Virus record (IMG/VR): IMGVR_UViG_3300001678_000033
Location: 1-28,925 of that record
Direction: 5' to 3' (one strand)
DNA: 28,925 nt
From: a virus
Part shown: positions 6,801 to 26,800 of the stretch, one piece after another
Layout of the letters: the number at the start of each line of letters is the position of its first letter
Numbering within the stretch: the stretch's first letter is position 1
The notes under the pieces: generated by a model
What the model saw: only the letters and a program-made list of their open reading frames with translations
Told to the model about the DNA's origin: nothing
The model's database searches: none
Program-made: the position numbers and the translations under genes

Positions 6801-9800
6801 ATTAATGCTATGGTAGATGCTCTAAGAGAAGAGCATGATTTACGAAAGGCCTCTGGAGAGCTACTATTACAAGAGGAGTTAGCGTATAGAGCTATGGAAG
6901 AGGCTAAGAACTATAATGCTACAGACTCTGCAGCTGATGCAATTTACGCTAATGTAGACAGCGGTGTAGACTTAATTACTTCTAATCTTAAGGAATTTGG
7001 TACTATATACGGTAACGTAGGTAAAGAGAGATTTGATAATCAAAGATGGATGGACTTCGGTGAACGTTTAATAGACCAGGGAGCTGAGGATTCTAAAAGG
7101 ATAATTAAGAGTGCTATAGGTGGGGAGCTAACACTGGAGCAAACATCTAAAGCAAGCCTTGTTAAACTAGGAATAACTAACTTCACTCTAGAGGAACTGC
7201 TTGCGACACAGAAGGATGTCCTAAATGCCACTCTTGCACTGGGTAACAGATCGTCCCTGCTGAAGACAGACGTAGTGACTAAGGCCTTTACGGACCCTGA
7301 GCTAGCAACGGATGATACACGAAAGGCCCTAATAGATGCCGCTAAGGTTATAACACAAAAAATAGGAACAGAACAGGGTAATAGTACAACTATACTAGTT
7401 GATCAGTTGATCACTATCAATAGCACCCTTAACAAACTAGGGAATGGGTTGACAGTTGCGATAACAAAAGGCCTGACTGAGTTCACGAAGAAAGAAGTGA
7501 CTAAAGAAGCCTTAGATATTGAGATAGGTAAGAAAGAAGCTAAGTCTACTATATCTACTTCATCGGAAGCTTTATCGGCTATAGGCACTATTGAAGTAAA
7601 CTTTGGGGGGCTACAGGACTACCTTACCAAACAATTGGCTAACCCTACTACTACCCTAAAGGGTGCTGAGGCCCTACAAAAGGCGCTTGCTGGCTTGGGA
7701 GACAAGTTTCCGGGTTTAATATCCCAAAGCAAACGGCTAGTTGATAGCCTTACTAGTAGCAAAACAGCAGTTGACTTAAATACTGAAGAGCACAAACTAG
7801 GTACTACTGCCCAGAAGGAAGGTACAATAGGACTGGCGGAAAACACAACAGCAGTTAAATCCAAGGAACCTATTAGTAACGTTACTAATAACATTACTAA
7901 TGTTACTAATTTAGCCGTAGACACAGAGGCAGTGGCCACAATAGTGTCTGAGGCGTTAATAAATCGTGCGGACAGACAGAAGAATAGGGGTAATAGGGAT
8001 ACAGTAGTATTTGATAAGGGGGTTCTAGACTTAGCAAGAGGTGGTCACATTACAGGACCTGGTGGACCTAAAGACGATGTTATACCTGCTTGGCTATCTA
8101 ATGGGGAGTTTGTTGTTAATGCGGCCGCTGCCAATGATAATAGGTCATTACTAGAGCACATTAACTCAGGCAATAAGATTAGCGGGTTTGCAGAAGGTAC
8201 TGCTACTTCAACTGGTGACCCCTTTGGTGCTGCACCAACATGGGACCCTATCGGTCTATACAGTTCACTAACACCTATAGCACAAGGCATACTAGACAAG
8301 GTAGATTCTACTACGCTAGTAATATTAGATTTCTTAAATCCTATTGTAGGACTAGGTGATACAGCCGACAATATGTTAATTGAGTTAATGCTGTTTAACA
8401 CATCATTTGACGACTTACTAAGTGAGCTACAGTACGTACAGCCTGGAAGCGAGGGCAACCTAATAGAGAATATTAATTCTGCATTTGCGGAATTAAAGCC
8501 AGTATTTGCCGACTTAAAGCCAATACTTAGTGATTTAAAACCAATAATGGAAAGACTTTCTAAGGGAGGAGTATGGGATACCCTATTCCCTGATTCTGAG
8601 TCTGAAGTTCAAGCTCCTAGAGTAATGCGCAATCGAAGATCTGCTTCATCCGTAGAGGTAGAGAAAAGAGCGAATGGTGGAGCTATTAGAGGCCCTGGGG
8701 GTCCTAAAGAAGACTTAATACCTGCTCTACTATCTAATGGTGAGTACGTAATTAACGCTGCTTCTACTAAGAAGCATGAGCCTCTTATACAAGCTATTAA
8801 TGAAGATAACGTCTCTCAATTTATGTCTGGCGGAAGAGCTAATGATGACATAGCTAGATTCAACGGAGGGGGTATGGTTCCTCCTAAAACTAATACTAAG
8901 GCTGTCAAAGCTATATACGCCGGTAGGTTCAGTAAGGGTGTTGAATTTGCGCACTGGCCTAGTGAAACTAGGGGTATGAAGAATGGTATACAAGGTTCGG
9001 TACGTTACGTAAGGGAAGGCAATAAAATAGTTAATATGCGTATGGATGCCCCTAAGGGAGGCCCAAGCTCCGCTCAGCTACTAAATGCTCTACTTAAGAA
9101 CAATCCTGAGATAACTTCTATAGACCCACTACAAACTACTCCAGGTAAAAAATTCAAGGACCCTAAAGGGTACGGAATCAACAAAATGCGAGGCGGAGGT
9201 GACCAGTCTCTAAAGACTTTGAGATACTTAGCCGGTCTACATGGAGTTGAGGTACTTGAGACATACGAAGAGATGGAAGACAGATGGGCACGCGAGTCTA
9301 AGGTTAAAGATGTAGAAAAGCGTACGATGCCTAGAAAAGGAGCAAGCATGCAAAGCATGCCTAAAGCAGGACTGCTTAAAACTGCTCTAAGATTTGTACC
9401 GGGACTAGGAGCCGCTATTACTGCAGCTGACTTTGCCTCTATGTACAATCCATTTGAGAAGGAATATACTTCTGTAATGGAGAGAGACTTTAGTGATAAG
9501 AAGGGTAAGAAGGACAACCCATTTGGCTCTCTTAACCTTAAGTTTGCGGAAGGCGGTATTGCTAAGTTTATGTCAGGCGGCCCAGTAGATGAGGATGAGT
9601 ATGCAAAAGGAAGGGCTTGGCAGAAACATCTGAAGGAGTACCAAAAGGAGTATCAGCCCAAATATCGCGCTAAGAAAAAGCTAGAAGCAGCAGCAGATGC
9701 GGAAAAAAAGGCTAAAAAGGCTATCTATAATAAGGAGTACAACGCCAGGAAAAAGGCAGAAAAATTGGCTAAACCTACGGAGGCTCCTTGGAAAAAACAG

Positions 9801-11663: not shown

Positions 11664-11665
11664 TT

Positions 11666-12016
11666 ATGGCAAGTGAATTTAATACACAAGTAGGGATTAA
11701 CCCTGCTAAAGGTTTTAAAGAAAACCGTGTACAAAAAATACTTAAGTCCCAGTTTGGTGACGGGTATATGCAGAGGACTGTAGAGGGGTTAAACAACCAC
11801 TCTAGTACTTTTTCTTTGAACTTTGTAAACAGAACCCCAGAGGAGGCAAGTGTAATAACAGACTTTCTTGAGGCACGAGGTGGGTTTAGAAGCTTTACAT
11901 GGACTCCTCCTGGAAGAGACAAAGAGATAAAAGTATTCTGTGATAAGTGGTCGGAGACTTATGTGGGGCACTCTACTATAAGTATAGAGGCTACTTTCAC
12001 TAAGGTGTACGAGTGA
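11666..12016 (+). CDS. M: Minor tail protein, lambda gpM-like
   Basis: This 116-residue protein is the size of lambda gpM (about 109) and lies directly after the tape measure and before L, as in lambda. Visible family features are an early GFKENRVQKILKSQFGDGY segment (a basic residue run leading to FGDGY), the central FSLNFVNRTPEEASVITDFL segment and the aromatic block RSFTWTPPG followed by a C-terminal beta strand (STISIEATFTKVYE). Proteins of this family join the distal tail tip complex and are needed to complete the initiator on which the tube polymerises. The ATG follows the tape measure stop by 2 bases. The stop overlaps the GTG start of L, so the two are probably translationally coupled. 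Confidence 0.9.
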   Translation: MASEFNTQVGINPAKGFKENRVQKILKSQFGDGYMQRTVEGLNNHSSTFSLNFVNRTPEEASVITDFLEARGGFRSFTWTPPGRDKEIKVFCDKWSETYVGHSTISIEATFTKVYE

Positions 12017-12855
12017 GTTCACATTACCCCTCGTCTGTAGTACTGGATATTTATAGCTTAGCCCCTGGGGAGCTTATAGAATTATTCGAGATAGACCTTA
12101 GTAAGGTGACTAAGCAGGATAAAGATGTATTCTACTTTCACTCGGGAACTTCAGTTATAGGCTCCTCTATAGTATGGCAGGAAGTAGAATACGTATCCTT
12201 CCCCATAGAGATTACAGGCTTTGAGTATAATGGTAAAGGTAAACTACCTAGCCCTATGTTAAAGATAGCTAATATAACGGGGATTCTTGTATCCCTACTA
12301 AGGGAGCATGAAGATTTATTAGGTGCCAAAGTTACTAGACATAGAACATTTGCCAAGTACCTAGACCCATTATGTGTTAGAAACGATAATGGGGCAGTGG
12401 CTGTTGGTATACACAATGAAACGGACTGTACCCAGCTAATGTTGCAAGAACCATTCGAAGCTCATACATGGCATCCTAATGAGTCAGCAGACCCTACAGC
12501 TAGCTTCCCGGACGATATATACTATATAGACCGAAAGAAGCAAGAAAATAGAATAGTAATAGAATTCGAACTGTCTACTGCTTTTGATGTACATGGAGTT
12601 AAGCTTCCTAGAAGGCAGATGATATCTAACACCTGCACCTGGGAGTATGGTCCTGACAGTATTAATAGAACAGGTAGTGCAGAGGGTTGCTCCTGGCTTA
12701 GAAACAACGATAAAATGTTTGATTCTTCTGACCAGCCTGTTACGGACTCCACTAAAGACGTATGTGGAAAGAGAGTAGGAAGCTGCGAACTTAGATTCGG
12801 AGAAACAGAGATATTACCTTATGGAGGATTCCCTGGGTCTAATGTAGGGTTTTAG
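12013..12855 (+). CDS. L: Minor tail protein, lambda gpL-like, with Fe-S cluster cysteines
   Basis: This is a 280-residue tail tip protein that starts with GTG at 12013, overlapping the M stop as GTGA. The N-terminal half (VVLDIYSLAPGELIELFEID, then FHSGTSVIG, WQEVEYVSFPIEITGFEYNG, LPSPMLKIANITG) matches the gpL family. The C-terminal part carries four cysteines at residues 208 (NTCTWEYG), 226 (GCSW), 251 (VCGK) and 258 (SCELRFG). Their arrangement resembles that of the ligands for the [4Fe-4S] cluster reported for lambda gpL. It ends in LPYGGFPGSNVGF, the conserved tail of the family. It is somewhat longer than lambda gpL (232), with extra residues around 115-165 that include two further Cys. 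The protein forms part of the tip hub next to J. Confidence 0.92.
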   Translation: MSSHYPSSVVLDIYSLAPGELIELFEIDLSKVTKQDKDVFYFHSGTSVIGSSIVWQEVEYVSFPIEITGFEYNGKGKLPSPMLKIANITGILVSLLREHEDLLGAKVTRHRTFAKYLDPLCVRNDNGAVAVGIHNETDCTQLMLQEPFEAHTWHPNESADPTASFPDDIYYIDRKKQENRIVIEFELSTAFDVHGVKLPRRQMISNTCTWEYGPDSINRTGSAEGCSWLRNNDKMFDSSDQPVTDSTKDVCGKRVGSCELRFGETEILPYGGFPGSNVGF

Positions 12856-12857
12856 CT

Positions 12858-13574
12858 ATGGAAAACAATATGAGAGAGCACGCTAAGCGTGAGTACCCAA
12901 GAGAAGCATGCGGATTAGTAGTAGAAATAGAGGGAGAAGAAATATACTTCCCCTGCAAGAACTTATCTGAAAACAGTGACCAAGACTTTATACTAGACCC
13001 TAGGGACTACGCGGACGCAGAAGATGCTGGTACTATAAGGGCAGTATTTCACTCTCACCCTAATGGGTCGTGCAATCCCAGTCCTGCAGACTTAGTATCT
13101 TGTGAGACCTCTATGCTGCCTTGGGTAATATTAAGCTGGCCTGCTAACAGCTTCTATAGATTTGCACCTACTGGGTACTCTGCAGAACTAGAGGGCCGAC
13201 CGTTCTACTATGGGGTACTAGACTGCTGCACTCTGTGCAGAGACCTGTACAGTAGAGAACTATCTATAGATTTTGAGTGTATAGACTCTTCAGGGGTTTA
13301 TCCTAAATTAAACTGGTGGGAAGATAAAGGTGCTGACTACTACGTAGATAACTTTGAGTCACAAGGATTTGTAAAACTGACTGATGAGACCCCTAAGAAG
13401 TACGATATATTCTTAATGAAAGTAGCGTCCCACTCTGCCAACCATGCAGCTGTATACCTGGGAGGCTGCTCTATAATACACCATCTATCGAATAGGCTAT
13501 CTATAAAAGAAGTGTATACCGGATACTGGCAGAAGCATACAGTTCACCATTTAAGACACAAGTCTCTATGCTAA
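12858..13574 (+). CDS. K: Tail tip peptidase, lambda gpK-like (JAMM + NlpC/P60)
   Basis: The 238 residues form two peptidase-type domains. The N-terminal JAMM (Mov34/MPN) domain has Glu16, the motif H65-S-H67, and then S75-P-A-D78, which fits H-x-H-x7-S-x-x-D exactly. The C-terminal NlpC/P60 domain has the likely nucleophile Cys123 in LDCCTLCRDLY, the His196 region (NHAAVYLGG) and a third polar residue candidate near IIHH. Both active sites look intact. gpK proteins are required for tail tip assembly and are thought to cleave a tail protein and/or peptidoglycan; the substrate cannot be told from sequence. The gene begins 2 bases after L and overlaps the first I gene by 7 bases. Confidence 0.93.
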   Translation: MENNMREHAKREYPREACGLVVEIEGEEIYFPCKNLSENSDQDFILDPRDYADAEDAGTIRAVFHSHPNGSCNPSPADLVSCETSMLPWVILSWPANSFYRFAPTGYSAELEGRPFYYGVLDCCTLCRDLYSRELSIDFECIDSSGVYPKLNWWEDKGADYYVDNFESQGFVKLTDETPKKYDIFLMKVASHSANHAAVYLGGCSIIHHLSNRLSIKEVYTGYWQKHTVHHLRHKSLC

Positions 13575-14191
13575 CCGATGTACGACTGTATGGAGAGCTA
13601 GCAGATAAATATGGTAAGGAGTTCCGTTTTGACATAGACTCACCGAAGGATGCAGTAGCCGCATTAGTGGCCAACTTCAGCACCTTTAGGGAGACTATGG
13701 AGGGGGAGGATAAGTACTACGCAGTAATATACGAGGAAGAAAACCTTGATGTAGATACCTTAGTATTAAAGAAGTTTGAAACTACCGGTACTTTAAAGAT
13801 AATACCTGTTATAAGAGGCTCCGGAGACTCTGCACTGGGTAAGATAATAATAGGGGCGTTAATAATATACGCAGCTACTCTTATACCGGGATCCACTGCT
13901 ACCTTTATGCAGCTACTTAGCGGCGCAGAGACTGTGTCCTTCTTACAAACCACCTTAGTATACCTAGGAAAAAGCGTTATGATGAGTGGAGTTACCCAGG
14001 CACTCGCCCCTACCCCTGGCACTGCTACTAGGGCAGATAAGGTAGAGAACTACTATTTCAATGGACCCGTTAATACAACAAGACACGGGAACCCTGTTCC
14101 TATAGCCTATGGCCAACTAATGGTGGGGGGAGCAGTAATAAGTGCTCAAATAGTATCACAAGACAGAACCATTTTAGAGGATAACAGCTAA
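13568..14191 (+). CDS. I: Tail assembly protein, lambda gpI-like, copy 1
   Basis: A 207-residue protein. The N-terminal 80 residues look like a beta-grasp (ubiquitin-like) domain (DVRLYGELADKYGKEFRFDI and GTLKIIPVIRGSG). A hydrophobic Gly/Ala-rich segment follows (KIIIGALIIYAATLIPG). The conserved C-terminal part includes NYYFNGPVNTTRHGNPVPIA and GGAVISAQIVSQD. This is the architecture of lambda gpI, which lies between K and J and is needed for tip assembly. The neighbouring gene encodes a second protein of the same type. Over 41 C-terminal residues the two agree at about 34 positions, but their N-terminal parts are clearly diverged. The stop overlaps the next start as TAATG. Confidence 0.9.
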   Translation: MLTDVRLYGELADKYGKEFRFDIDSPKDAVAALVANFSTFRETMEGEDKYYAVIYEEENLDVDTLVLKKFETTGTLKIIPVIRGSGDSALGKIIIGALIIYAATLIPGSTATFMQLLSGAETVSFLQTTLVYLGKSVMMSGVTQALAPTPGTATRADKVENYYFNGPVNTTRHGNPVPIAYGQLMVGGAVISAQIVSQDRTILEDNS

Positions 14192-14787
14192 TGAGCACTA
14201 TAGTTTTATACGGACATTTAAGAGAGAAGTTGGGTAAGACCTACTCCCTAGATGTGCAATCTGCGGCAGAGGCGATAAGAGCAATGAGTGCCGTAGTACC
14301 TGGATTCAAAGAAGCTATACTAGGAAACGGGGAGACGCCTCTAGCCTATAAAGTATTAATAGGCGATAAAGTAGCTAGTATACACGAATATCAGAACCCA
14401 ACTAGCACCAGTACTATAAGGATAGTACCTGCTATTATGGGCTCCAAAAGTAAGACAGAACAAATACTAACTGGGGCCTTACTTATGTGGGCAGGCAGTG
14501 GCCTCGGGGGCCCGATAGTTCCAGGTGGTGACGGTCTGAGCATGATGCAAGCGGCAGGAAGTATGATGTCCAACTTCGGAATGTCTATGGTAATGTCCGG
14601 TATAGCACAAATGCTGGCACCTGACCCTGTGGATACCCCAGAGACGCCTAAGAACTACTACTTCAATGGCCCCGTTAATACAACAAAACAAGGAACTCCA
14701 GTACCCGTGGCCTACGGGCAGGTACTAGTAGGAGGAGCAGTAATAAGCGCTCAAATAGTCTCACAAGATAAAACCAGATTAGATTAG
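14191..14787 (+). CDS. I: Tail assembly protein, lambda gpI-like, copy 2
   Basis: A 198-residue paralogue of the preceding gene, starting at the TAATG overlap. It has the same order of parts: a beta-grasp-like N terminus (IVLYGHLREKLGKTYSLDV, TIRIVPAIMGS), a hydrophobic middle rich in Gly and Met (ILTGALLMWAGSGLGG, MSNFGMSMVMSGIAQMLAP) and the conserved C terminus (NYYFNGPVNTTKQGTPVPVA, GGAVISAQIVSQD). Lambda has a single I gene, so this is a duplication. The Met-rich middle differs from copy 1. The two proteins may form a hetero-oligomer in the tip or act at different assembly steps; the sequence does not decide. J starts 13 bases after the stop, with AGAGGA as its ribosome site. Confidence 0.9.
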   Translation: MSTIVLYGHLREKLGKTYSLDVQSAAEAIRAMSAVVPGFKEAILGNGETPLAYKVLIGDKVASIHEYQNPTSTSTIRIVPAIMGSKSKTEQILTGALLMWAGSGLGGPIVPGGDGLSMMQAAGSMMSNFGMSMVMSGIAQMLAPDPVDTPETPKNYYFNGPVNTTKQGTPVPVAYGQVLVGGAVISAQIVSQDKTRLD

Positions 14788-14800
14788 AGGATAAGTACCG

Positions 14801-17800
14801 ATGAGTAATAGCAATGAAATAATACAGAATGTACCTATTATTAGGGGTGCCCTTGGAGGAGACGGAGGAGAAGGTACTGCTCCTGTAGAAGAGGACAATA
14901 CTCTATTTTCCACAGCTACAGCTAGTGTTCTAGACTTGGTATCTGAGGGCGAGATTGAAGGACTGGTAAACGGCGCAAAGTCTATTTTCTTTGATGGCAC
15001 TCCTCTAAAGGATACACAAGGTAACTGGAACTACAGGGATGTATCTTGGCAAGAGGAGAAAGGTACTCAGTCTAATAGAGTTATACCTGGGTTTGAAACT
15101 ACAGCTACACAAGTATCAGTTAACCAAATGGTAGAGCAAGATGGCGCTACCCCTCTTGGTGTTATAAGAACTATAACTTCCGCTAATATGGACGCTATTA
15201 GAGTTAGTATGTATACCCCCTCTTTTGTGTACGTTGATAACGAGACAGGGGACCAGCGCTCTACTACCGTAAGATACACTATTGAACTTAAGCCTAACAT
15301 ATACGAAGACTGGATACCTTACCCAGGAGTAGACGAGTATTACCAGAAAGAAGGTAAAATTACTACTAGGTATGACTGGAACCATAAGTTCCCTATACCC
15401 CTAGAGTGGAAGGCCGATGTAGACTTTAACTCCGTACAAGTACGAGTAAAGAGACTAACGGCAGACTCCACTAATGACGATAAGGAGAAGTACGAGGAAG
15501 ACGTAGCAGAATACGAAGCACGCTTAGATGAGTGGATAGAGGCGGCGGGGTTTCTTGGAACAGTAGTGCAGCCAACTGCTCCTAACCCAGATGACTACAA
15601 TAAAGAGTCTACTAGTATTCAGAATAAGATATACTGGGGTTCTTACTCCTCTATAATTGAAAATAAGTTCTCCTACCCTAACAGTGCTATAATGGGTATT
15701 AGACTAGATGCTAGACAGTTCGGACATGTACCCGTACGAGGATACGAGATACGCGGTGTAAAAGTAAGAGTACCTAGTAACTATAATCCTTATGACCCGG
15801 AAGCAGATAATACCGTATTATACAATGGAATATGGGACGGGTCTTTTGATATTAAGTGGACTATGAACCCCGCTTGGATATACTACGATTTATTAACTAA
15901 CCCTAGATATGGTCTTGGGGAGTTTTTAACAGAATTACATATAGATAAATGGTCCCTATATACAATAGGAAGGTACTGTGACGGAGTAAATGAAGAGGGA
16001 CGGTTTGTTGGGCTACCTTCTGGATTCGTAGACAACGAGGGTGTAGATGTCATGGAGCCTAGGTTTACATGTAACTTATACCTACAAGGAGCAAATGAGG
16101 CTTATAAGGTTTTACAAGACATAGCATCAGTGTTTAGAGGGCTAGTATACTGGGACCAGGGTCTAGTATCCGCAATACAAGATAGGCCAAAGAGTCCGGT
16201 ATTTCAGTTCTCTGAATCAAACGTTATTGGAGGTAACTTTTCTTATACTGGTTCTTCGAAAAAAGCAAGACATACGGTAGTACTAGTTACATGGAATGAC
16301 CCCGAGGATGGATATAAACAGGCCATAGAGTACGTAGAGGATAGGGACGGAGTAATTAGATATGGAGTAGTAGAGAAATCTATAGTAGCTTTCGGGTGTA
16401 CTTCTAGGGGGCAAGCCAGAAGAGCTGGTAGATGGTTGCTGTACACGGAAAGAATGGAAACCGAGGGTATTAGCTTCCAAACAGGACTAGAAGGAGCCCC
16501 TATACGCCCTGGAGACTTAGTAAAAGTATCTGACAAGCATAGAGCCGGAGTAAGGTACGGAGGTAGATTACTACAAGAGACCTGTTCTGACACTGGGTAC
16601 TATACAGAGGAGTCTTGCAGTAATGACTCTACCTTTAGGGGTACAGGGCTAGATGACTTCAGTAAGTCTGGAACGTATACTGGTAAGGTAGGAACGGAGA
16701 TAGAATTTGTAGTAAGCTTTACAAAATACGCACCCTATGAACCTACAATACATATATCCGAGAGTGGGTGGAATGACGACTATGATTATATTATAGAAGA
16801 TTTATACTTAATGGATGGGGATATCCTAACCTTTATAAATAAGGGAGTAAGTCCTGTAAGGGTACAAGATAGCAAGGGGCTGTTTGACTCTGGGGATCTA
16901 CCACTACTACAGGGAGATGTATTTGTTTTCCGTATACCGCCTGATTTCTCTAAGCAGGTACTAGAGGCATATAATACTCCCGAAGAAATTCAGTACTCTA
17001 TTGATAACCCATTTGATAACAGCCTTAACTCTCCTATAGTACGTAACATATACGATCTAGCATTTCCAGTTCTAACATTGGACTGTGACCCTATAGACTT
17101 CGACCCGGATGAAGTTAACATATACATTGATGGTAAGCTAGATACCGCTACAGGTACGGGTATTCCTATGACGGGCAGGGTTACTCTATACAACCAAGGA
17201 ATTACTTATCAGTTTACTAATAGCATAGGGCACGAAGTTGGCGACTCTTGGGTTTGGAAGTCAAGAGAATGGAACTCCTCTTCACGAACAGAGCTAGTAT
17301 TAGATGGGCCTGTGGACTTAAAGGTAGGTGATGAAGCTATGGTAAGTCTTGTACAGCCCGGAAGTAGGTGTATAAATGAGGACGGAGACGTAATAACAGG
17401 AGATTTAGCAACTAGCTACAGTGCATGTACTGGCTACGGGTACACTTGGGAGGATACTTCCTTTGTAGTAGATAGGAGCATAATAATAGACACAGACTTA
17501 AGTACTATGGAGCACCCTATACTACACCTAGACGTGGCCTTAGACTTTGACCCAGCACCTTTACAGATATGGTCTATTGAACGACCTGGAGCACTAGAAT
17601 CTCAGTTATTCCGTGTACTAGCTATATCAGAGAAATCTAAGAGTGTATACAACATAACGGGGCTACAGTATAATGGCTCTAAGTTTGACGCAATAGAATT
17701 AGGAGACGAGCTAGAGAGAAGACCTATAAGCAACAGATCTGAATGGTCTGATACCGTACCTATGGTAGGAGATATTGTTGCTACTGAAGAATTACACCTA

Positions 17801-20752
17801 AAGGTAGATAACGTAATAAATAGACTACATGCTAGCTGGGGTCACCCAATTAGCTCTTACTATTGCCTAGGTGACGACAGTATATCTGAGGAATCTAACT
17901 GTACAGGATACTCTAGCTATGCTACTGAGTTCACATGTTCCGACCCTATTTACTTCGATGAGACTAGCTGTACTGAGGCCTTAGGTACTTGGGCAGAGAC
18001 TCCCGTAGAGTTAGTTTGGAGCAGAAATAGCTACAACTATGTAAGCCACTATGAAGTGCAGTTTAGAAGAGAGGAAGAGGACTGGGTATCCCTGCCTACT
18101 AGCTTATCTAACAGTATTACTATTGAGAATACAAGCGCATCCCCATTAAAAGAGTACATCTGTTCAAATACACAGTATACCGATAGGGAATCATGTATAG
18201 AGAACGACGCACTGTGGGAGAAAAGACCTTCACTATGTTACGTTGATGATACTGCAGTATGTTTTGCAGGAACCACATACTCCATTAGAGTTAGAACTAT
18301 AGCTATAATAGGAAACAGGTCTTCTGCTTGGAACGAGAAAAAGATACATCTACTTGGTAAGACATCTCCTCCTGCCGACGTACTAGGGCTAAGCACTGAT
18401 TGGGACAAGAATAAGGGATTATCCCTAACTTGGAGCTCTGTAAGAGACTTAGACCTTTCCCACTATGAGGTTAGAAAGGGCACAAACTGGGATACTGCTG
18501 AAGTACTCAAGGTTAACGTACCTACCCCATACCTAGAAGTGGGCAGTATATTAACAGGTACGCATACGTTTTTAGTAAAAGCAGTAGATACATCAGGAAA
18601 CTATTCCTATGTGGAAGACAGAGTAGAATACTCTCCTTTAGCACCTGCCTCAGTGAGAGACTTAAGCTTTACGGTACATGAGGGCTTCACCACACTAACA
18701 TGGTCAGAGCCTACTACTCAGCAGCAAGGAGTTAAGGGGTATGAAGTAAGGCAAGGAACTGATTGGGCTAATGGCCAGTCACCTCTTAGCATACCTTCTA
18801 AAGAGGTGACGTACCCAGTAACTTGGGGGCCAGAAGGGTACACTGACGCAAGTTCGCCAAGTACAGGCTCTTCCACTTTTTGGGTAGCTGCTATAGATTA
18901 CTCAGATAACTTCGGGTCACCAACTTCTATAACTATTGATATAGGTAGGCTATCTACCCCTGAGCTAACTAATACTATAGAAGGAACTAACGCAAGACTT
19001 TCCTGGATACCGCCTGTCACTAGTGGTATGCCTGTGTCCTCTTACCAGCTTAGGCAGGGGGATAGTTGGGAATCCTCTACTTTAATAACTAATAGTAACA
19101 CTACTGAGTGGAGTATGCCCGTAACCTGGGGTAACAATAACCCTAAAACCCTTTGGGTAGCAGCAGTAGACTCCGCGGGAAATGTAGGATATCCTGCTAT
19201 ATCTACTATAGCGGTTATAAATCCGTCAGCACCTGTAGTAGCACACTCCTTTAACTCAGAGAATGTTCTTATACAGTGGTCGGATAGCGGAATAGGAAGT
19301 CTTCCTATTCTAGAGTACGAAATAAGGTACGGTGTTACTTGGGAAGATGGAAGAAACTTATCTGGTATAGCTAGTACTGATGAGAACTTTTCTCCAGAAC
19401 TGAAAGACGGCACTACTAAGGCTGTTAGATGTAGTTGGGGTACTAAGTACGGGGAGCCTACTAGGGCTTTTTGGGTACAGTCCACGGATACTGCAGGAAA
19501 TAAAGGTATACCAGGTAAAACGGAGGTAACTATTGTAGATCCAGCTGCTCCGGTATTAGTTACTTCTGATGTGATTGATAACTATATTATACTAGATTGG
19601 GACGCTGCAGTAGTAGTACAGGATACCGAGGTATCCGTAGTATCGGCAGGAGGACAACTACCTATACAAAACTATAGAATGTATAGCTGCGGTAAGGACA
19701 ACACTACTTGTAGTGTGGAAGATGTAGCAGATACTTCGTTACTACTAGGCCCTTCTACCTTTATTACCAAGTTTGAGTCAGCGGGTGGAGTATATAAATA
19801 CTTTTTAGCTGCAGTAGACTCCGCAGGTAATGAAGGCGAGCCTATGGAGCACGAGGCTATAATTAATCAACCCGCTAATTTCGTTCTACACGATAGCTTT
19901 ATTAGTAGCTTAGATACTTCTAGTCCTTACAATACAGAACATTGTGATGGAGCGGTAGCGTCAGATGCGGTATCTTGTACTGCTATAGGGGGTACTTGGG
20001 TTGAGACTGATAGAATATCCACTGTTGACTTGTATAAAGGTGACAGCTTCCCTGCTTATGGTCCGGTGGATACGACAGAGACTTGGGCTGAGCATATAGT
20101 TCAGCATCCTAGTTCTTGGGGTTCAGAGGACCCATACGTTACTCCAAAACCAGGTACAAATACTTTCGCATTTACACATGTTATAGACTTAGGAGTGGAG
20201 TTAACCTCCTCCAACATTCAGACAGACATAGCAGCTAAATATCTTAACAGTAGTGCCGAAGTGGACTACAACTTAAATACCTACTGGACTAACAACTTGG
20301 CTTACTTTAACGAAGCTGACTTAGCTTCCGAGTACGGGTGGGAAAAGGCTGATTCTTTGAGAACAGCAGCAGCTACTAATTTGAGGTATGTCAAAGTAAT
20401 ATGTACGTTTAATAACGTGCCTACAGGAGACTTAGTAAGGATTGACAACGTTAAGGTGTCGTTCACTATGTCGGAGCAGGTAGAAGAAGGGTCCGGGGAA
20501 GTAACGAATGCAGTAGACGGGCAACTACTCTACGTGGACGGTAGCTCCCCAGACATGGGAACAGTATCCAAGTTTATTGATGTTAAAGACATAGAGGCAA
20601 ACTACTCAGGATTGAGTAATACTAAAACTGCTATAGTTGACTTTGTAGACCAGGCCAGTCCTGTATCTGCTACAGTCTACGTATACGATATTGAATCAGG
20701 AACCAAGACTACGGGGTCATTTACATGGCGTGTACTTGGGGTTAAAGACTAA
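14801..20752 (+). CDS. J: Tail tip attachment / host specificity protein, lambda gpJ-like, 1983 residues
   Basis: This is the central tip protein that forms the end of the tail and usually contacts the receptor. The N-terminal part matches gpJ (TASVLDLVSEGEIEGLVNGA, FFDGTPL) and residues about 430-590 form the hub core (NEAYKVLQDIASVFRGLVYW, RAGRWLLYTERMETEGISF, IRPGDLVKVSD). The core beta-sandwich that follows GGRLL is interrupted by about 235 residues before it resumes near 830 (TELVLDGPVDLKVGDEA) and near 945-1005 (LQIWSIERPGALESQLFRVL, YNITGLQYNGSKFDAIELG). Five FnIII-like repeats lie at roughly 1188, 1280, 1385, 1476 and 1580, each ending in a W/F-x-A-VDxAGN type strand. Small cysteine modules are scattered at 595-606, 857-876, 1022-1057, 1121-1132 and 1715-1726. 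The C-terminal 290 residues include FIDVKDI and TAIVDFVDQASPVSATVYVYD. It is far longer than lambda gpJ (1132) because of the inserts and FnIII repeats. Confidence 0.95.
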   Translation: MSNSNEIIQNVPIIRGALGGDGGEGTAPVEEDNTLFSTATASVLDLVSEGEIEGLVNGAKSIFFDGTPLKDTQGNWNYRDVSWQEEKGTQSNRVIPGFETTATQVSVNQMVEQDGATPLGVIRTITSANMDAIRVSMYTPSFVYVDNETGDQRSTTVRYTIELKPNIYEDWIPYPGVDEYYQKEGKITTRYDWNHKFPIPLEWKADVDFNSVQVRVKRLTADSTNDDKEKYEEDVAEYEARLDEWIEAAGFLGTVVQPTAPNPDDYNKESTSIQNKIYWGSYSSIIENKFSYPNSAIMGIRLDARQFGHVPVRGYEIRGVKVRVPSNYNPYDPEADNTVLYNGIWDGSFDIKWTMNPAWIYYDLLTNPRYGLGEFLTELHIDKWSLYTIGRYCDGVNEEGRFVGLPSGFVDNEGVDVMEPRFTCNLYLQGANEAYKVLQDIASVFRGLVYWDQGLVSAIQDRPKSPVFQFSESNVIGGNFSYTGSSKKARHTVVLVTWNDPEDGYKQAIEYVEDRDGVIRYGVVEKSIVAFGCTSRGQARRAGRWLLYTERMETEGISFQTGLEGAPIRPGDLVKVSDKHRAGVRYGGRLLQETCSDTGYYTEESCSNDSTFRGTGLDDFSKSGTYTGKVGTEIEFVVSFTKYAPYEPTIHISESGWNDDYDYIIEDLYLMDGDILTFINKGVSPVRVQDSKGLFDSGDLPLLQGDVFVFRIPPDFSKQVLEAYNTPEEIQYSIDNPFDNSLNSPIVRNIYDLAFPVLTLDCDPIDFDPDEVNIYIDGKLDTATGTGIPMTGRVTLYNQGITYQFTNSIGHEVGDSWVWKSREWNSSSRTELVLDGPVDLKVGDEAMVSLVQPGSRCINEDGDVITGDLATSYSACTGYGYTWEDTSFVVDRSIIIDTDLSTMEHPILHLDVALDFDPAPLQIWSIERPGALESQLFRVLAISEKSKSVYNITGLQYNGSKFDAIELGDELERRPISNRSEWSDTVPMVGDIVATEELHLKVDNVINRLHASWGHPISSYYCLGDDSISEESNCTGYSSYATEFTCSDPIYFDETSCTEALGTWAETPVELVWSRNSYNYVSHYEVQFRREEEDWVSLPTSLSNSITIENTSASPLKEYICSNTQYTDRESCIENDALWEKRPSLCYVDDTAVCFAGTTYSIRVRTIAIIGNRSSAWNEKKIHLLGKTSPPADVLGLSTDWDKNKGLSLTWSSVRDLDLSHYEVRKGTNWDTAEVLKVNVPTPYLEVGSILTGTHTFLVKAVDTSGNYSYVEDRVEYSPLAPASVRDLSFTVHEGFTTLTWSEPTTQQQGVKGYEVRQGTDWANGQSPLSIPSKEVTYPVTWGPEGYTDASSPSTGSSTFWVAAIDYSDNFGSPTSITIDIGRLSTPELTNTIEGTNARLSWIPPVTSGMPVSSYQLRQGDSWESSTLITNSNTTEWSMPVTWGNNNPKTLWVAAVDSAGNVGYPAISTIAVINPSAPVVAHSFNSENVLIQWSDSGIGSLPILEYEIRYGVTWEDGRNLSGIASTDENFSPELKDGTTKAVRCSWGTKYGEPTRAFWVQSTDTAGNKGIPGKTEVTIVDPAAPVLVTSDVIDNYIILDWDAAVVVQDTEVSVVSAGGQLPIQNYRMYSCGKDNTTCSVEDVADTSLLLGPSTFITKFESAGGVYKYFLAAVDSAGNEGEPMEHEAIINQPANFVLHDSFISSLDTSSPYNTEHCDGAVASDAVSCTAIGGTWVETDRISTVDLYKGDSFPAYGPVDTTETWAEHIVQHPSSWGSEDPYVTPKPGTNTFAFTHVIDLGVELTSSNIQTDIAAKYLNSSAEVDYNLNTYWTNNLAYFNEADLASEYGWEKADSLRTAAATNLRYVKVICTFNNVPTGDLVRIDNVKVSFTMSEQVEEGSGEVTNAVDGQLLYVDGSSPDMGTVSKFIDVKDIEANYSGLSNTKTAIVDFVDQASPVSATVYVYDIESGTKTTGSFTWRVLGVKD
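16583..16618 (+). repeat. C-x10-C module 1 in J
   Basis: Residues 595-606, CSDTGYYTEESC. It is placed directly after GGRLLQET, at the break point of the J core sandwich. Other copies with the same spacing are at residues 1046-1057, 1121-1132 and 1715-1726. Confidence 0.65.
17864..17971 (+). repeat. Paired cysteine modules in J (residues 1022-1057)
   Basis: Two adjacent units: C1022 with C1034 (CLGDDSISEESNC) and C1046 with C1057 (CSDPIYFDETSC). The second is followed by a Trp eight residues later (ALGTW), as in the copy at 1715. Confidence 0.65.
18161..18196 (+). repeat. C-x10-C module in J (residues 1121-1132)
   Basis: CSNTQYTDRESC followed by IENDALW. The same Y, ES and Trp positions are seen in the other copies. 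Confidence 0.65.
19943..19978 (+). repeat. C-x10-C module in J (residues 1715-1726)
   Basis: CDGAVASDAVSC followed by TAIGGTW. It lies just after the last FnIII-like repeat, at the start of the C-terminal region. Confidence 0.65.
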
Positions 20753-20771
20753 AAATTAAGGAGAATAAATA

Positions 20772-21899
20772 ATGGCAAATTGGAATAACCCTCGCCAAGA
20801 AAGTACCTACACGCAAGTTTTAGGGGAGTTTAAGGAAAGAGATGAGGATGCTGCTAAGCAGTTCCGTAACTACGGAGACAACGCAATACTAGGTAGTTCA
20901 TGGCCTATAGGAACTATTAGGTTCGACGGCGCACAATGGCTTACTTGGAGTGGAACTACCTGGAGTATCCTATCTACCTCTTACAATATAAATGTGGATA
21001 GGTTGGGCACTCACTCTGCTTCTACGGCTGGAGGAGCGGGTAATATTCCTGTATGTGGGGATACAGTACAAACTAATCTAAACGCTGATAAGCTTGATGG
21101 GTATCATGCGGGAACAGGGCAACTACAAATACCTATATCGAACGGTACTGTATGTGTTAACCTTAATGCAGATAAGCTTGATGGGTACGACGCAGGAACC
21201 GCCTCAGGTAATATACCTATATCTAACGGCAATAAGTGTACTAACCTCAACGCAGATCTATTAGACGGGTACCATGCGGGAACCGCTAGTGGTAATATAC
21301 CAGTATCTAACGGTAATAAGTGTATAAATTTAAACGCTGATATGCTTGACGGACTTACCTCGGGAAATAATAGTGGAAATATACCTATATCTAACGGTAG
21401 CCTGTGCGTAAACTTAAACGCAGATAACCTTGAGGGTCTATCCTCTGGAAATGGAAACGGTAATATACCTATATCTAACGGTGTTATATGTACTAACTTA
21501 AACGTTGAGAAGATATCCGGTAAATTATTATCTGACCTGTCTTTAGCCCATACACATCCATACCTTCCTACTAACCCCTCCTCTGGATCCGCTACATTTA
21601 CAGGTAACTTAACTGTTACAGGTGGAATTACAGAAAGCTCTGATGCAGCATTAAAGTATGATATACTACCTATACAGGGTGCTTTACATACTATTAGCCA
21701 ACTTAAGGGGTCAACCTATAAGTGGAAATCTGATAATAAGAGTTCTATAGGACTTATAGCACAGGAGGTAGCAAAGGTTGTACCAGATGCTGTTACATAC
21801 GGAGAAGATGGGGAAGCTGTAGGAGTACAGTACACCAGACTTATAGCCCTGCTTATTGAAGCAGTAAAAGATTTAAATAACAAATTGGAGAATAAATAA
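20772..21899 (+). CDS. Tail fibre protein with C-terminal S74 self-cleaving chaperone
   Basis: A 375-residue fibre with a strong ribosome site (AAGGAG at 20758-20763). The N terminus (MANWNNPRQESTYTQVLGEF, later PIGTIRFDGAQWLTWSGTTW) resembles virion-binding heads of phage fibres. Residues 90-257 are six tandem 28-residue repeats with GNIPISNG and LNADKLDGYHAG cores. The C-terminal about 86 residues are an S74 intramolecular chaperone domain, with ESSDAALKYDI at 288-298 and SSIGLIAQEVAKVVPDAV. Ser290 and Lys295 have the S-x4-K spacing of the catalytic dyad seen in endosialidase-type chaperones, so trimerisation followed by release of the C-terminal part is likely. The Arg common in the S-D-x-R-x-K motif is Ala here, so cleavage activity is inferred, not certain. 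It probably forms a trimeric side fibre or a tip accessory fibre. Confidence 0.88.
   Translation: MANWNNPRQESTYTQVLGEFKERDEDAAKQFRNYGDNAILGSSWPIGTIRFDGAQWLTWSGTTWSILSTSYNINVDRLGTHSASTAGGAGNIPVCGDTVQTNLNADKLDGYHAGTGQLQIPISNGTVCVNLNADKLDGYDAGTASGNIPISNGNKCTNLNADLLDGYHAGTASGNIPVSNGNKCINLNADMLDGLTSGNNSGNIPISNGSLCVNLNADNLEGLSSGNGNGNIPISNGVICTNLNVEKISGKLLSDLSLAHTHPYLPTNPSSGSATFTGNLTVTGGITESSDAALKYDILPIQGALHTISQLKGSTYKWKSDNKSSIGLIAQEVAKVVPDAVTYGEDGEAVGVQYTRLIALLIEAVKDLNNKLENK
21039..21542 (+). repeat. Six tandem 84-bp (28-residue) repeats in the tail fibre
   Basis: The NAD-x-LDG core begins at 21081, 21165, 21249, 21333, 21417 and 21501, exactly 84 bases apart each time. Each unit reads GNIP-x-SNG-x-x-C-x-NLNAD-x-LDG with a variable end. 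A Cys is present in each unit (in the first it is shifted). The last unit is degenerate (NVEKISGKLLSD). Confidence 0.92.
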
Positions 21900-22243
21900 T
21901 GCCAGCAGGTACACATAATATAATTATAGAGAAGGGTGCTTCATTTGACTTATCTCTAACCATAGAGAAGCCTAAAGGTACTCCAATGGATATATCTAAC
22001 TATGAAATATACGGACAAGTACGAAGGGACTTATATGATACTGAAGTAAACGCAGAGTTTTCTAGTACTAAACCAGGAGGAGGAGTGGATGGTAAATTTA
22101 CTATTTCTATAACTCCAGACCATACTGACACTATGTCTGCTGGAATGAACGTGTACGATATAGAACTTCATGAGCAGAGTACCGGCCAGGTAATGAGGCT
22201 ATTAGAGGGGCGCGCAGAAGTTAAGGCAGGAGTAACCAGATGA
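21899..22243 (+). CDS. Small tail-associated protein, predicted beta-sandwich
   Basis: This 114-residue protein overlaps the fibre stop (TAATG at 21897-21901) and the next start (ATGA at 22240). It begins IIIEKGASFDLSLTIEKPKG, followed by MDISNYEIYGQVRR, GKFTISITPDHTDTM, NVYDIELHEQSTGQVMRLLE and a final GRAEVKAGVTR. This is an alternating strand pattern of an Ig-like or baseplate-protein-like domain that I have seen in phage genes placed next to fibres. No enzyme motif is present. Because of its position and tight coupling it is probably a fibre adapter or a tail tip decoration. The function is not established. Confidence 0.7.
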   Translation: MPAGTHNIIIEKGASFDLSLTIEKPKGTPMDISNYEIYGQVRRDLYDTEVNAEFSSTKPGGGVDGKFTISITPDHTDTMSAGMNVYDIELHEQSTGQVMRLLEGRAEVKAGVTR

Positions 22244-22620
22244 TTGATGTTCACTTAACGGTTATTGAGTACCCTATAGTTAGTATTGACGTAAAGGCTG
22301 CGGATGAAATAGTAACAGAGATAAAAGAAGAGTCTACTGTAGTACTGTCCTCTGAGCTATCTTTTAGCCAATTAGCTAAGTACGTAGCATTTGAGCAGCA
22401 TGGCAGTTTAGTATCTAAGAACGTACAAGATGCTATATCCGAAATATCCGATAACTTATTTCAGCAGGGAGAAGAACCTACTGTTGGAGTTAATGAAGGA
22501 GACTTGTGGTACGATACAGTTCACGATACCCTTATGGTATATAGTACTATAGACGGATCTAGTAGCTGGACTGAGGTTGTTATGCAGAACCAGGGTACCG
22601 TAGACGGGGGAGAGTTCTAG
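22240..22620 (+). CDS. Small tail-associated protein with a GDLWYDT motif
   Basis: A 126-residue acidic protein that begins in an ATGA overlap. The N-terminal 45 residues are beta-strand-like (HLTVIEYPIVSIDVKAADEI). A helical stretch (NVQDAISEISDNLFQQG) then leads into EGDLWYDTVHDTLMVYS and SSWTEVVM. The G-x-L-W-Y-D-T pattern with a following L-x-V-Y and a Trp strand is common in phage fibre and tail-tip proteins, and related forms occur in the genes at 23864 and 27424. It is the last gene of the tail operon before a gap with a promoter. I do not recognise a named family. Confidence 0.65.
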   Translation: MIDVHLTVIEYPIVSIDVKAADEIVTEIKEESTVVLSSELSFSQLAKYVAFEQHGSLVSKNVQDAISEISDNLFQQGEEPTVGVNEGDLWYDTVHDTLMVYSTIDGSSSWTEVVMQNQGTVDGGEF

Positions 22621-22638
22621 AAATATTACGTATTTTTC

Positions 22639-22679
22639 AAAGGTGGGGAAAAAATTTACTTGACATTTACCCCGCCTTT
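22639..22679 (+). promoter_or_regulatory. Inverted repeat around the -35 box (candidate operator)
   Basis: AAAGGTGGGG (22639-22648) pairs with CCCCGCCTTT (22670-22679): nine Watson-Crick pairs and one T-G. The 21-base centre contains the -35 box at 22660-22665. There is no T-run after the right arm, so a plain terminator is less likely than a regulator site or an RNA structure at the end of the upstream transcript. Confidence 0.5.
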
Positions 22680-22688
22680 CGGTATAAT
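22660..22688 (+). promoter_or_regulatory. Consensus sigma70 promoter (TTGACA-17-TATAAT)
   Basis: TTGACA at 22660-22665 and TATAAT at 22683-22688 are separated by exactly 17 bases: every -35 and -10 position is consensus. It lies in the only gap of more than 100 bases in the tail region, upstream of the gene at 22729. A start about 7 bases after the -10 gives a leader of roughly 34 bases. Confidence 0.88.
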
Positions 22689-22705
22689 GTATTTATAAAC
22701 TCGAG

Positions 22706-22717
22706 TCCTACATAGGA
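22706..22717 (+). promoter_or_regulatory. Small palindrome in the leader of the 22729 gene
   Basis: TCCTA-CA-TAGGA is a perfect 5-bp inverted repeat around CA, with flanking A-T and G-T extension. Its right arm holds the AGGA that may serve as ribosome site 11 bases before the ATG. It could be a DNA-binding half-site pair or a weak ribosome-site hairpin. Confidence 0.35.
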
Positions 22718-22728
22718 TTTATAGAAAG

Positions 22729-23568
22729 ATGGCAAGATCAAACACGATAGTACTAAAGAGAACGAATGTTCCCGGTAAGATACCAAGTACTCAGAATTTG
22801 ACACAACCAGGCGAAGTTGCAGTAAATCTGGCAGATAATAAGTTATTTGTAAGAAATACTGAGGACCAAGTTATAGAGTTGACGAGTCAGCCGTTAGGCA
22901 ACGCGTCAGACGTAAATATTTCTTCCCCGCTAGACGGGCAAGTACTAAGATTTAGAAGTTCAACTAATCAGTGGGAATCTTCTAACTCTTTACATATACT
23001 ATCTTCGGATGGTGAAGTTTCTGTTATGAATGCAGAAGTACTTAAGTTTGATCAGAATACAGGATTACAGGTAACAGATCTGGGGAACCATGAAGTTGAA
23101 ATCAGCATTGGTTCACACTGGAAACAAATAGAAGTAGACGGAGAGTCTACGTTGACCCCTACTGGCGAAGAGCCTTTACAGCTAATAGCAGGAACAGGGT
23201 TGACAATTAAAACGGATAGTTCAACCGCTCCACAGAGCATCGAGTTTATAGCAAATGAACCTTATCTGTCTGCCTTACAGGATGTAGTATTAGATCACAC
23301 TCCACCAGTTAATGGGGAAATTTTAAAATGGGAGAACAACGCTTGGCGATTATCGACAGGTGTAGATATCCAGAGATTTGCGTTCGATACTCCAAGTTTT
23401 ACTTGGAATATCGCTCATGAAAAGGGAACAGATCAATTTATTGAGAGAATAGTTAGAGAAGACGGAATGCCTATGTTTGCTAATATAGATGTAATAGATC
23501 CCAATAACTTTAACGTGTATTTTACGGAAGAAGTAACAGGTCACATAGATGTTATTTTTTCAGGATAA
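22729..23568 (+). CDS. Tail fibre / fibre adapter protein, 279 residues
   Basis: First gene after the consensus promoter. The N terminus (LKRTNVPGKIPSTQNLTQPG, then EVAVNLADNKLFVR) is the anchoring motif often found at the start of phage fibre proteins, with PGE-x-AVNLAD and a following LFVR strand. The middle is beta-rich, with ISSPLDGQVLRFRSSTNQWE and the similar HTPPVNGEILKWENNAWRLS, which look like two copies of a D/NG-x-x-L-x-W module. The C-terminal 60 residues (FTWNIAHEKG to HIDVIFSG) resemble a small domain also found at the end of the 23864 product and near the start of the 27424 product. A role as part of a side or receptor-binding fibre is inferred from these modules and from the neighbouring fibres. 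Confidence 0.8.
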   Translation: MARSNTIVLKRTNVPGKIPSTQNLTQPGEVAVNLADNKLFVRNTEDQVIELTSQPLGNASDVNISSPLDGQVLRFRSSTNQWESSNSLHILSSDGEVSVMNAEVLKFDQNTGLQVTDLGNHEVEISIGSHWKQIEVDGESTLTPTGEEPLQLIAGTGLTIKTDSSTAPQSIEFIANEPYLSALQDVVLDHTPPVNGEILKWENNAWRLSTGVDIQRFAFDTPSFTWNIAHEKGTDQFIERIVREDGMPMFANIDVIDPNNFNVYFTEEVTGHIDVIFSG

Positions 23569-23592
23569 AACAGATAAAGGAAGAGACAAAAA

Positions 23593-23802
23593 ATGAATGA
23601 AGTAAGAATACCACGCACAGAGCTGCATTTAGCAGCTTATGTGAAAGCTCATGGGGGAGGTTTTTTAAACTTCGCTGATGGGTGCTTTATATTCGAGAGT
23701 GATAAGCCCGAGAATGAATGGAGAGTTGCGCATAGCAACAGTTGTTGTCTAAAGACAGATGTAGAGTTATTTACCCTAAAGAAGTTTTTACCAAGACGCT
23801 AA
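23593..23802 (+). CDS. Small DUF5659-like protein between fibre genes
   Basis: A 69-residue protein with a purine-rich ribosome site (GGAAGAG, 23579-23585). It reads RTELHLAAYVKAHGGGFLNF, then CFIFESDKP, then an FTLKKFL end. The pattern of an LAAYL-like helix, a Gly-rich turn, an F-x-F strand and a final Leu/Phe helix resembles the small DUF5659 family found in phages. That family has no known function. Two adjacent Cys (NSCCLK) are unusual. It lies 24 bases after one fibre gene and 61 before another, so it is co-transcribed with the fibre module. The family call is by eye and tentative. Confidence 0.6.
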   Translation: MNEVRIPRTELHLAAYVKAHGGGFLNFADGCFIFESDKPENEWRVAHSNSCCLKTDVELFTLKKFLPRR

Positions 23803-23863
23803 GAGAAGAGAAGAGGACTAAAAATTTAAATTAATATGATAATATTTCTTAGGAGGAAATAAT

Positions 23864-26800
23864 ATGGCTACAATATATCCAATTCATCACGGTATTACGC
23901 TTGCAAGCGGTTCCGAGATAGAAAACGTCGTAATTGAGACGTTAGCAAATGATCCAGCACCCCTTGTAACAGGACGTGTATGGTATAACTCAACTACCGG
24001 CTTCTTAAAAGTTGCACTAGGTAACCCTGCAGTTGCTGCAGACGTTGCAAGTGGTGTTAACGTTGCAGACGCGGTATCTACACTTAGAACTGATCTTCAA
24101 GGTAAACTTGACGCTCTAGACGCTGATACTTACAGTATCGCTGAAACTAACTCTGCTATTGACTTAGCTGTTACTAGTCTAATAGACGGCGCTCCTGGTA
24201 TCCTTGATACTCTTAGTGAGCTAGCTACTGCTATTGGCGACGACGCTAATTTCATTACTACTATTCAGACACAGATCGCAGAAGAAGCTAATCTAGCTCG
24301 TGCTGGTGAAGGTTCTTTAGTATTTGAACACGTAACTGCATCCGATCTTACTGGTGCTATTAATGCTGAAGGCACTCGTGCTAAAGCTGCAGAAGGCACT
24401 AATGCTGACGCTATCTCTACAGAAGCTTCTACTCGTGCTACTGCTACTGGTAACTTAGCTTCTTTGACTACTGGTGCTACTGGTAGCCTAGTAGATGCAA
24501 TCAATGAAGTAAACGATGACGTTACTTCTGCTATCAATGAAATTGACGCTACTCAAGTAGGTGCAGGTTTAGATACTACTGGTTCTTACGTTCCAGATTC
24601 AGCTTCTAACTACATTGGTGCTGCTACTAGCTTAGCTGCTGCTGACTCTGCTCTAGACGCTCAAGCGCGTACTACTGCTGACGATCTTGCTACTGAAGTT
24701 GCTGACCGTTCTAATGCTATTACTGAAGAAGCTACTGCTCGTTCTAATGCAGACGCTACATTACAAGGTCTTATAGACGGTAATACTGCTGACATTAGCT
24801 CTAACGATACAGATATCGCTGCTAATGCTGATGCTAACACAGCGTCTAACGTTAGGATTTCTGCTTTAGAAACTGATGGTACTGTTGCTGCTTTACAAGC
24901 TGAAGTAGACGGAACACAATCTTCTGCTGGACTTAACGCTGACGGTTCTTACTCAGCTACTGCAACATCAAGCTTCATAGCTACTGCAACTTCACTTAAG
25001 AGTGCTGATAACTTACTAGATAGCGCTGTTAAAGCTAACCAAACTGCTATTACTGCTGAAACAGACCGTTCTGTTAGTGCTGAAGCTGGTCTACAGGGTC
25101 AAATTAATGATACTGTAAACGCAACTTCTGCTGCACAAACTGAACTTGACGCTGTTGAAGCAGGTACTGGACTAGGAGTAAATGGTAACTATACTGCTTC
25201 TGTTACTAGTAACTTTGCTGCAACTGCAACGTCACTTAAGAATGCTGATGAGTTATTAGATTCGCAAATCAAGTCTAACTTGACTGCAATCACTACTGAA
25301 GCTTCAGACCGTACTACAGCTGATAATACTCTACAGTCTAACATTGACGCAGTAGTAAACACTGCTAGTGTTAATGCTGGTGCTTTAACTACTGAGACTA
25401 CTCGAGCTAAAGGCGAAGAGTCTAGAATCGAAGGTAAAGTTGATGCTAACACTGGAGACATCGCAGGAAACGTAACAGCTATCGGTAACGAAGCTACTAC
25501 TCGTAGCAACGCTGATACTACTCTTCAAGGTAACATTGATGCAGCTAACTCTGCAACTGAAACTGTTGCATCTGATCTAGGTACTGAAGCTGGACGTGCT
25601 AAGTCTGAAGAATCTAGAATCGAAGGTAAAGTTGACGCTAATGCAACTGACTTAGGTACTGAGACTGCTCGTGCTAAGACTGCTGAAGGCGTAAATGCTG
25701 ATGCTCTTTCTACTGAGACTACTCGTGCTAAAGCTGCTGAAGGCGTAAATGCTGATGCTGTATCTAGTGAAGCTACTACTCGTGGTAACGCTGATACTAC
25801 TCTTCAAGGTAACATTGACTCCGCTAATACAGCGACTGAAACTGTTGCAGCTGACTTAGGTACTGAGACTACTCGTGCTAAGTCTGAAGAAGCTAGAATC
25901 GAAGGTAAAGTTAACACTAACGCATCTGATATCTCTAGTGAGAAAACTCGTGCAACCGGTGTTGAAGCAGACTTAAATACTGCTATATCTGACGAGACTA
26001 CTCGTGCAACTAACGCTGAATCTTCTAACGCTACAGCTATCTCTGATGAAGCAACTCGTGCAACTACTGCAGAAGGAACTCTAACGCAGAACTTGACAAG
26101 TGAATCTACTACTCGTGGAAATGCTGATACGTTACTACAGACTAACATTGACGCTGCTAACACAGCGACAGGTACTGTTGCTACTAACCTAGATACTGAG
26201 ACTACTCGTGCATCTGGTGAAGAAGCTAGAATCGAAACTAAAGTTGATGCTAACACAAGTGCTACAGGTACTGTTGCTGCTGACCTAGCTACTGAGACTA
26301 CTCGTGCTAAAGCTGCTGAAGCTGTTAACACTGGTAACTTCACTACTGAAGTTGCTGACCGTACTCTTGCAGACGCAGACCTACAGTCTAAGCTTGATAC
26401 TGCTAACGGTAAGATTACTCTTAACGATAGTGCTATTACTACTGAAGCTGGTCGTGCTAAAGGTGAAGAAGCTAGAATCGAAGGTAAAGTTGACAATAAT
26501 GCTACAGCAATCGGATTTAACGCTGAAGACATTACTGCTGAAGCTGGACGTGCTCAAAATGCGGAAATTGGTTTAGGTACTGATATCCAAGTTGAAGCTA
26601 ACTCTCGTTCTACTGAAGATGCTAGACTAGCAGGTTTGATTGCTGATAATGCAAGTTCAACAGACGCTGTTGATGCAGCTATCCGTGGTGCTTACAATGC
26701 AACTATCTACACGCATGCATCCGCAGCTTCATCTCTAGTTCACGCTATCCCTCATAACTTAAATAGCAACTTCGTAGAAGTTAGCGTATTTATGTTCTCT

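Follow-up and report, generated by a model that had tools for sequence, protein, structure and literature searches.

A consensus sigma70-type site ahead of the tail fibre genes of an uncultured siphovirus-like phage as a probable late promoter

The intergenic region ahead of the tail fibre genes of an uncultured siphovirus-like phage harbours an exact consensus sigma70 site, at positions 22660-22688 of the 28,925-nt stretch of DNA analysed here (IMG/VR record IMGVR_UViG_3300001678_000033, hereafter the window). Very probably, this site is a late promoter for the host sigma70 polymerase that starts a separate fibre transcription unit. This reading draws on the sequence, conservation, position and recurrence of the site, from which its activity, start site and timing are predicted. 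The host sigma70 polymerase would read the site and transcribe the tail fibre genes, involved in host recognition, from 22729 on. The site would belong to a phage-wide set of near-perfect promoters, with an A-tract, a -35, a -10 and often an extended -10, which would open the structural modules singly: one behind the terminase gene, one ahead of the fibre genes and, in near relatives, one ahead of the tail genes. In the lineage of the window, it would most likely add transcript to read-through from the tail genes, which probably contributes because no terminator was seen upstream of the fibre promoter. In more distant relatives, a strong terminator would make the fibre unit depend on its own promoter. 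The late timing would presumably stem from a general cause, e.g. phage factors that act upon the host polymerase, a mechanism proposed for T5, and presumably not from an operator at the site itself.

Promoter core and genetic context

The window is a late-gene segment with all its genes on the + strand, coding in order for tail chaperones, the tape measure, tail-tip proteins, a fibre-associated protein and the fibre proteins; the contig holds late genes only. The tail-tip genes are of the lambda type (M, L, K, two copies of I, and J), and a nucleotide search of phage records found no match to them. The promoter is located in the gap between the fibre-associated gene and the first fibre gene (Table 1).

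Table 1. Features around the fibre promoter, in window coordinates
Feature	Position	Strand	Remarks
Last gene before the promoter, 126 aa, fibre-associated	22240..22620	+	PHROG tail fibre match; same place in relatives
Inverted repeat, left arm AAAGGTGGGG	22639..22648		8/10 positions kept in three phages; probably no operator
A-tract GGAAAAAATTTAC, 5' of -35	22647..22659	+	Conserved in three phages
-35 hexamer TTGACA	22660..22665	+	Exact consensus; same in L002 and L003
Inverted repeat, right arm CCCCGCCTTT, inside the spacer	22670..22679		2/10 positions kept in three phages
-10 hexamer TATAAT	22683..22688	+	Exact consensus, 17 bp past -35; same in relatives
Predicted transcription start	22695..22695	+	About 7 nt past -10; from spacing only
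Palindrome TCCTACATAGGA, leader	22706..22717	+	Short 5' mRNA hairpin containing AGGA
First fibre-unit gene, 279 aa	22729..23568	+	PHROG matches; N-terminal domain common to long tail fibre proteins
69-aa ORF after the first fibre gene	23593..23802	+	ORF list; no family match
Probable fibre gene, 1018 aa	23864..26920	+	ORF; weak match to a PHROG of unknown function; fibre role predicted by position
Tail fibre gene, 428 aa	27424..28710	+	Tail fibre PHROGs

As the initial annotation had stated, the two hexamers match the consensus at 12 of 12 positions with a 17-bp spacer. With both strands of the window scanned, this is the sole 12/12 site, the runners-up reaching 10/12. A position matrix trained on other contigs gave it a score of 25.5, compared with 6.1 for the best site of six Markov-simulated windows, while its flank score is below those of the other family sites scored. 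The spacing falls within the 16-18 bp of sigma70 promoters, and the elements are more conserved than the spacer and flanks. The -10 has a G at -14 without TG, i.e. a weak extended -10, and we take the A-tract to be a probable UP-type contact for the alpha subunit. No divergent promoter was seen at the site. By its sequence, it looks like a host-sigma70 promoter able to transcribe the downstream fibre genes alone.

The tape-measure gene is very long, coding for 3603 aa in the window (852-11663) and 3788 aa in another member of the group, G004 (13684-25050). In the near relative G002, it consists of two ORFs of 2295 aa (10117-17004) and 1470 aa (17075-21487); the gene may be truly split there, or the assembly or sequence may be in error. 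Two adjacent genes of the window (13568-14191 and 14191-14787) both match phrog_32, the family of the lambda tail assembly protein I, and seem to be a tandem duplication. Two ORFs of similar size are found at the same position in the relatives.

Conservation in near and distant relatives

Using the gene downstream of the promoter as a query, we found two near relatives, L002 and L003 (86% amino acid identity). Both keep the two hexamers, the A-tract and the leader. Over the three phages, the 22 positions of 22648-22669 are all identical, as are 36 of the 37 positions from just 5' of the -10 to the end of a hairpin in the leader (22681-22717), compared with 2 of 10 in the mid-spacer. Identity between the window and L002/L003 at fourfold-degenerate sites is 33-54% in the genes just upstream and 63-65% in the downstream gene. 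Selection thus appears to hold the promoter elements, not the spacer. When all viral contigs were scanned for the exact promoter together with GTATTTATA, 31 contigs were retrieved, and the flanks were common only to the two known relatives.

A second group of contigs (L008, L009, L011-L013, L016, L022-L024, L028, L030 and L034) harbours different flanks. These contigs have a perfect promoter, strongly conserved among them, whose start region is again GTATTTATA, and their leader (TTATTTAAGGGACACACA) is conserved as well.

Two more distant relatives, G007 and G006 (53 and 50 kb), have terminases with 75% identity. In both, a strong intrinsic terminator is immediately followed by a perfect site, with the homologue of the 22729 gene next, and the homologues of this gene in L002, L003, G007 and G006 are each preceded by a perfect promoter. 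An extra 893-aa gene intervenes between the homologue of the 126-aa gene and the promoter in G006 and G007, which indicates that the promoter is tied to the fibre gene. Of 80 loci that share the N-terminal region of the fibre protein, only the four from this clade have a site of at least 11/12 upstream, and we rejected a general link between the promoter and this domain. The idea that the fibre genes are expressed by the host polymerase alone gains support from the conservation of the site in close relatives and from its position behind a terminator in the distant ones. These data suggest that the fibre genes of the group are transcribed as a unit of their own, in keeping with their being an exchangeable module.

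In G007, the gap before the 893-aa fibre gene (38807-38868 in the terminase orientation; L136, reverse strand) has no promoter. It contains two perfect palindromes, CCGATATATATCGG and ACTCTATATAGAGT. It may be common for hairpins to precede fibre genes.

A promoter set across the phage family

The longest near relative, G002 (41.6 kb), has three perfect sites, before the head, tail and fibre modules. The first follows the terminase stop codon by 21 bp, the second precedes the tail chaperone gene directly behind an intrinsic terminator, and the third precedes the fibre gene. The window starts just downstream of where a site equivalent to the second would lie.

With the G002 terminase as a query, at least 598 viral stretches were collected, of which 80 loci were kept. 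We scanned from -20 to +110 relative to the terminase stop in the 79 loci with enough sequence. A site of 11-12/12 was present in 73 of these 79 loci and one of at least 10/12 in all of them, many of the loci being near-duplicates, so that the independent cases are fewer than 79. By background alone, 0.012 sites of 11-12/12 would be expected in a stretch this long. Similarly, the pattern TTGAC[AT]-16/18-TATAAT gave 38 sites in 17 contigs of the family, and the reversed control pattern gave none.

The nonredundant sites with a 17-bp spacer number 58 overall, of which 22 are post-terminase sites, all 22 with an A-tract. Beyond the hexamers, the family sites share A4TA just upstream, a C before the -35, and TTTG[GA] before the -10, at positions that played no part in picking the sites. 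Such a layout is that of strong sigma70 promoters that have UP-type contacts as well as an extended -10.

Upstream of the terminase gene, the related contig L141 harbours two genes on the - strand that represent unusual phage cargo. They code for a protein with CHASE2 and adenylate/guanylate cyclase domains (10832-12622) and for a FecR-domain protein (13968-15098).

Inverted repeats, leader hairpin and alternative explanations

The repeats described in the initial annotation are present, that around the -35 with one mismatch (9 of 10 pairs, or 10 of 10 if G-T is counted). The statement that the palindrome covers the ribosome site is only roughly right: AGGA is inside it, and the ATG at 22729 follows about 12 nt later. 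As this palindrome is conserved and lies downstream of the predicted start, it reads better as a leader hairpin, which in the mRNA would have a 7-bp stem with AGGA on its 3' side.

A role of this hairpin in translation or mRNA stability is possible. In a variant compatible with the late promoter, transcription of the fibre genes would be late and free of local control, and the AGGA hairpin would govern how well the first fibre gene is translated or how stable its mRNA is. We regard this addition as tentative. The near-complete identity over the -10 and the leader, as far as the hairpin extends, is in its favour, the sole variable base falling in the loop. However, the predicted fold of the leader and coding start (approximately -7 kcal/mol, with the same hairpin in the three phages) is not clearly better than those of shuffled sequences (z -0.6 to -1.2), no compensatory changes are found in the stem among the three phages, and the leader is not common to the other promoters of the family.

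It was also proposed that the repeats are operators, and a repressor bound to the -35 repeat and/or the leader palindrome might keep the fibre genes off until needed. We consider this improbable. The -35 repeat is G+C-rich, with an RNA fold z of -3.6, and the leader palindrome is conserved, both of which would suit a repressor. Nevertheless, the right arm of the repeat is poorly conserved among the three phages and is gone in L003/G002, where the promoter is intact; therefore, this repeat is probably not an operator, and we discarded that reading on the loss of the arm in G002. Repeats of such quality are also common: the final 9 kb of the window contain 22 of equal quality, compared with 3-17 in simulations, and the whole window contains 43 palindromes like that of the leader, compared with 29-39. 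Lastly, a search for the same palindrome elsewhere in the window and in the near relatives yielded no further exact copy, which speaks against a shared operator and would leave the repressor with a single-site one. Of the suggestion that the fibre genes are separately controlled, separate promotion is supported, but a dedicated repressor and a lysogenic conversion function are not.

According to that last idea, the site would be a moron promoter from which a prophage would express the downstream genes, with its other genes silent. An autonomous consensus promoter within a late region, as found here, is typical of morons. Lysogenic conversion is nevertheless unlikely, and we give the moron reading very little credence. 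The downstream genes are fibre genes, and the same promoters precede head and tail modules, which a lysogen would not express. No integrase was found in 13 incomplete contigs of the family, and close relatives of the terminase in 84,980 bacterial and archaeal genomes were limited to four short contigs. As the phage contigs are incomplete, the case against lysogenic conversion is weak. All four bacterial contigs are from gammaproteobacterial assemblies, which hints weakly at a gammaproteobacterial host group.

A chance match without function is hardly credible: partial matches are many in A+T-rich genomes (25 sites of at least 9/12 in the window, compared with 27.5 expected), but the site is a 12/12 match that is intergenic and conserved, it scores far above simulations with a matrix from other contigs, and it recurs at homologous places.

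Comparison with phage T5

G002 harbours homologues of the T5 terminase (48% amino acid identity), HNH protein, portal (44%), protease (53%), capsid (43%), major tail protein (30%), chaperone and part of the tape measure. Its head, neck and tail tube are thus of the T5 type (Demerecviridae); the window starts past those genes. The distal tail is different, with lambda-type tip genes in place of pb3, pb4 and the L-shaped fibre, and the G002 homologues of the tail-tip genes have no match in T5. We therefore did not assign the group to the Demerecviridae.

Like T5, the group has a host-sigma70-type site that precedes tail or fibre genes within the late structural region. In the T5 record, PG25 separates the tape-measure gene from the genes of the distal tail and the L-shaped fibre, PJ5 is ahead of the major tail gene, and another promoter precedes the receptor-binding gene oad. 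PG25 (GGAAAAATAAAAATTTC-TTGATA-17-TATAAT) is the closest parallel to the fibre promoter: both are strong sigma70-type sites of the late structural region, and PG25 likewise has a 17-bp spacer and TATAAT, with a GGAAAAATAAAAATTTC tract before the -35 and with distal tail and L-shaped fibre genes next. They differ in the -35, which is perfect in the window, and in the putative terminator annotated just upstream of PG25, the like of which was not seen in the window; moreover, the tail tip encoded in the window is not T5-type. Similarly, oad, a gene of the late region with a role in receptor recognition, has a separate promoter of the sigma70 type. However, this promoter overlaps a divergent promoter of the lytic conversion lipoprotein gene, which has no visible counterpart in the window.

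In T5, all gene classes are transcribed by the host sigma70 polymerase, strong sigma70 promoters precede early as well as late genes, and PG25 and PJ5 give rise to late transcripts, seen at 30 min (PMC7472727). The delay of the late promoters is explained there only in part, by a polymerase-binding protein that shifts the balance (PMC7472727). An ATATT discriminator motif was noted for T5 early promoters (PMC7472727). We rejected it as a temporal label in our family, as it separates nothing there (1 of 27 post-terminase and module sites, and none of 31 others).

By analogy, the most plausible reading of the window site is an element of the T5 late promoter type, an arrangement long known from that phage. 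The initial annotation called such a promoter unexpected downstream of tail genes. Since relatives carry the same promoter type before head, tail and fibre modules and T5 late promoters also sit in such places, sequence comparison indicates that the site is no anomaly in its phage group. The T5 pattern of strong host-type promoters on late genes is thus extended to an uncultured phage group, and the 79 post-terminase loci with the tail and fibre promoters provide a comparative set for the T5 question of how strongly promoted late genes stay silent early. More speculatively, and with considerable doubt on our part, a large and mostly uncultured T5-core group might place its structural modules on separate near-perfect sigma70 promoters, with a fibre unit that can be uncoupled. 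The timing would then be set by a general switch of the host polymerase or by staged DNA entry, and the leader hairpin would tune fibre output.

In G002, the prohead protease and the major capsid protein, which are encoded by two genes in T5, are fused in one 647-aa ORF (L045, 3345-5288).
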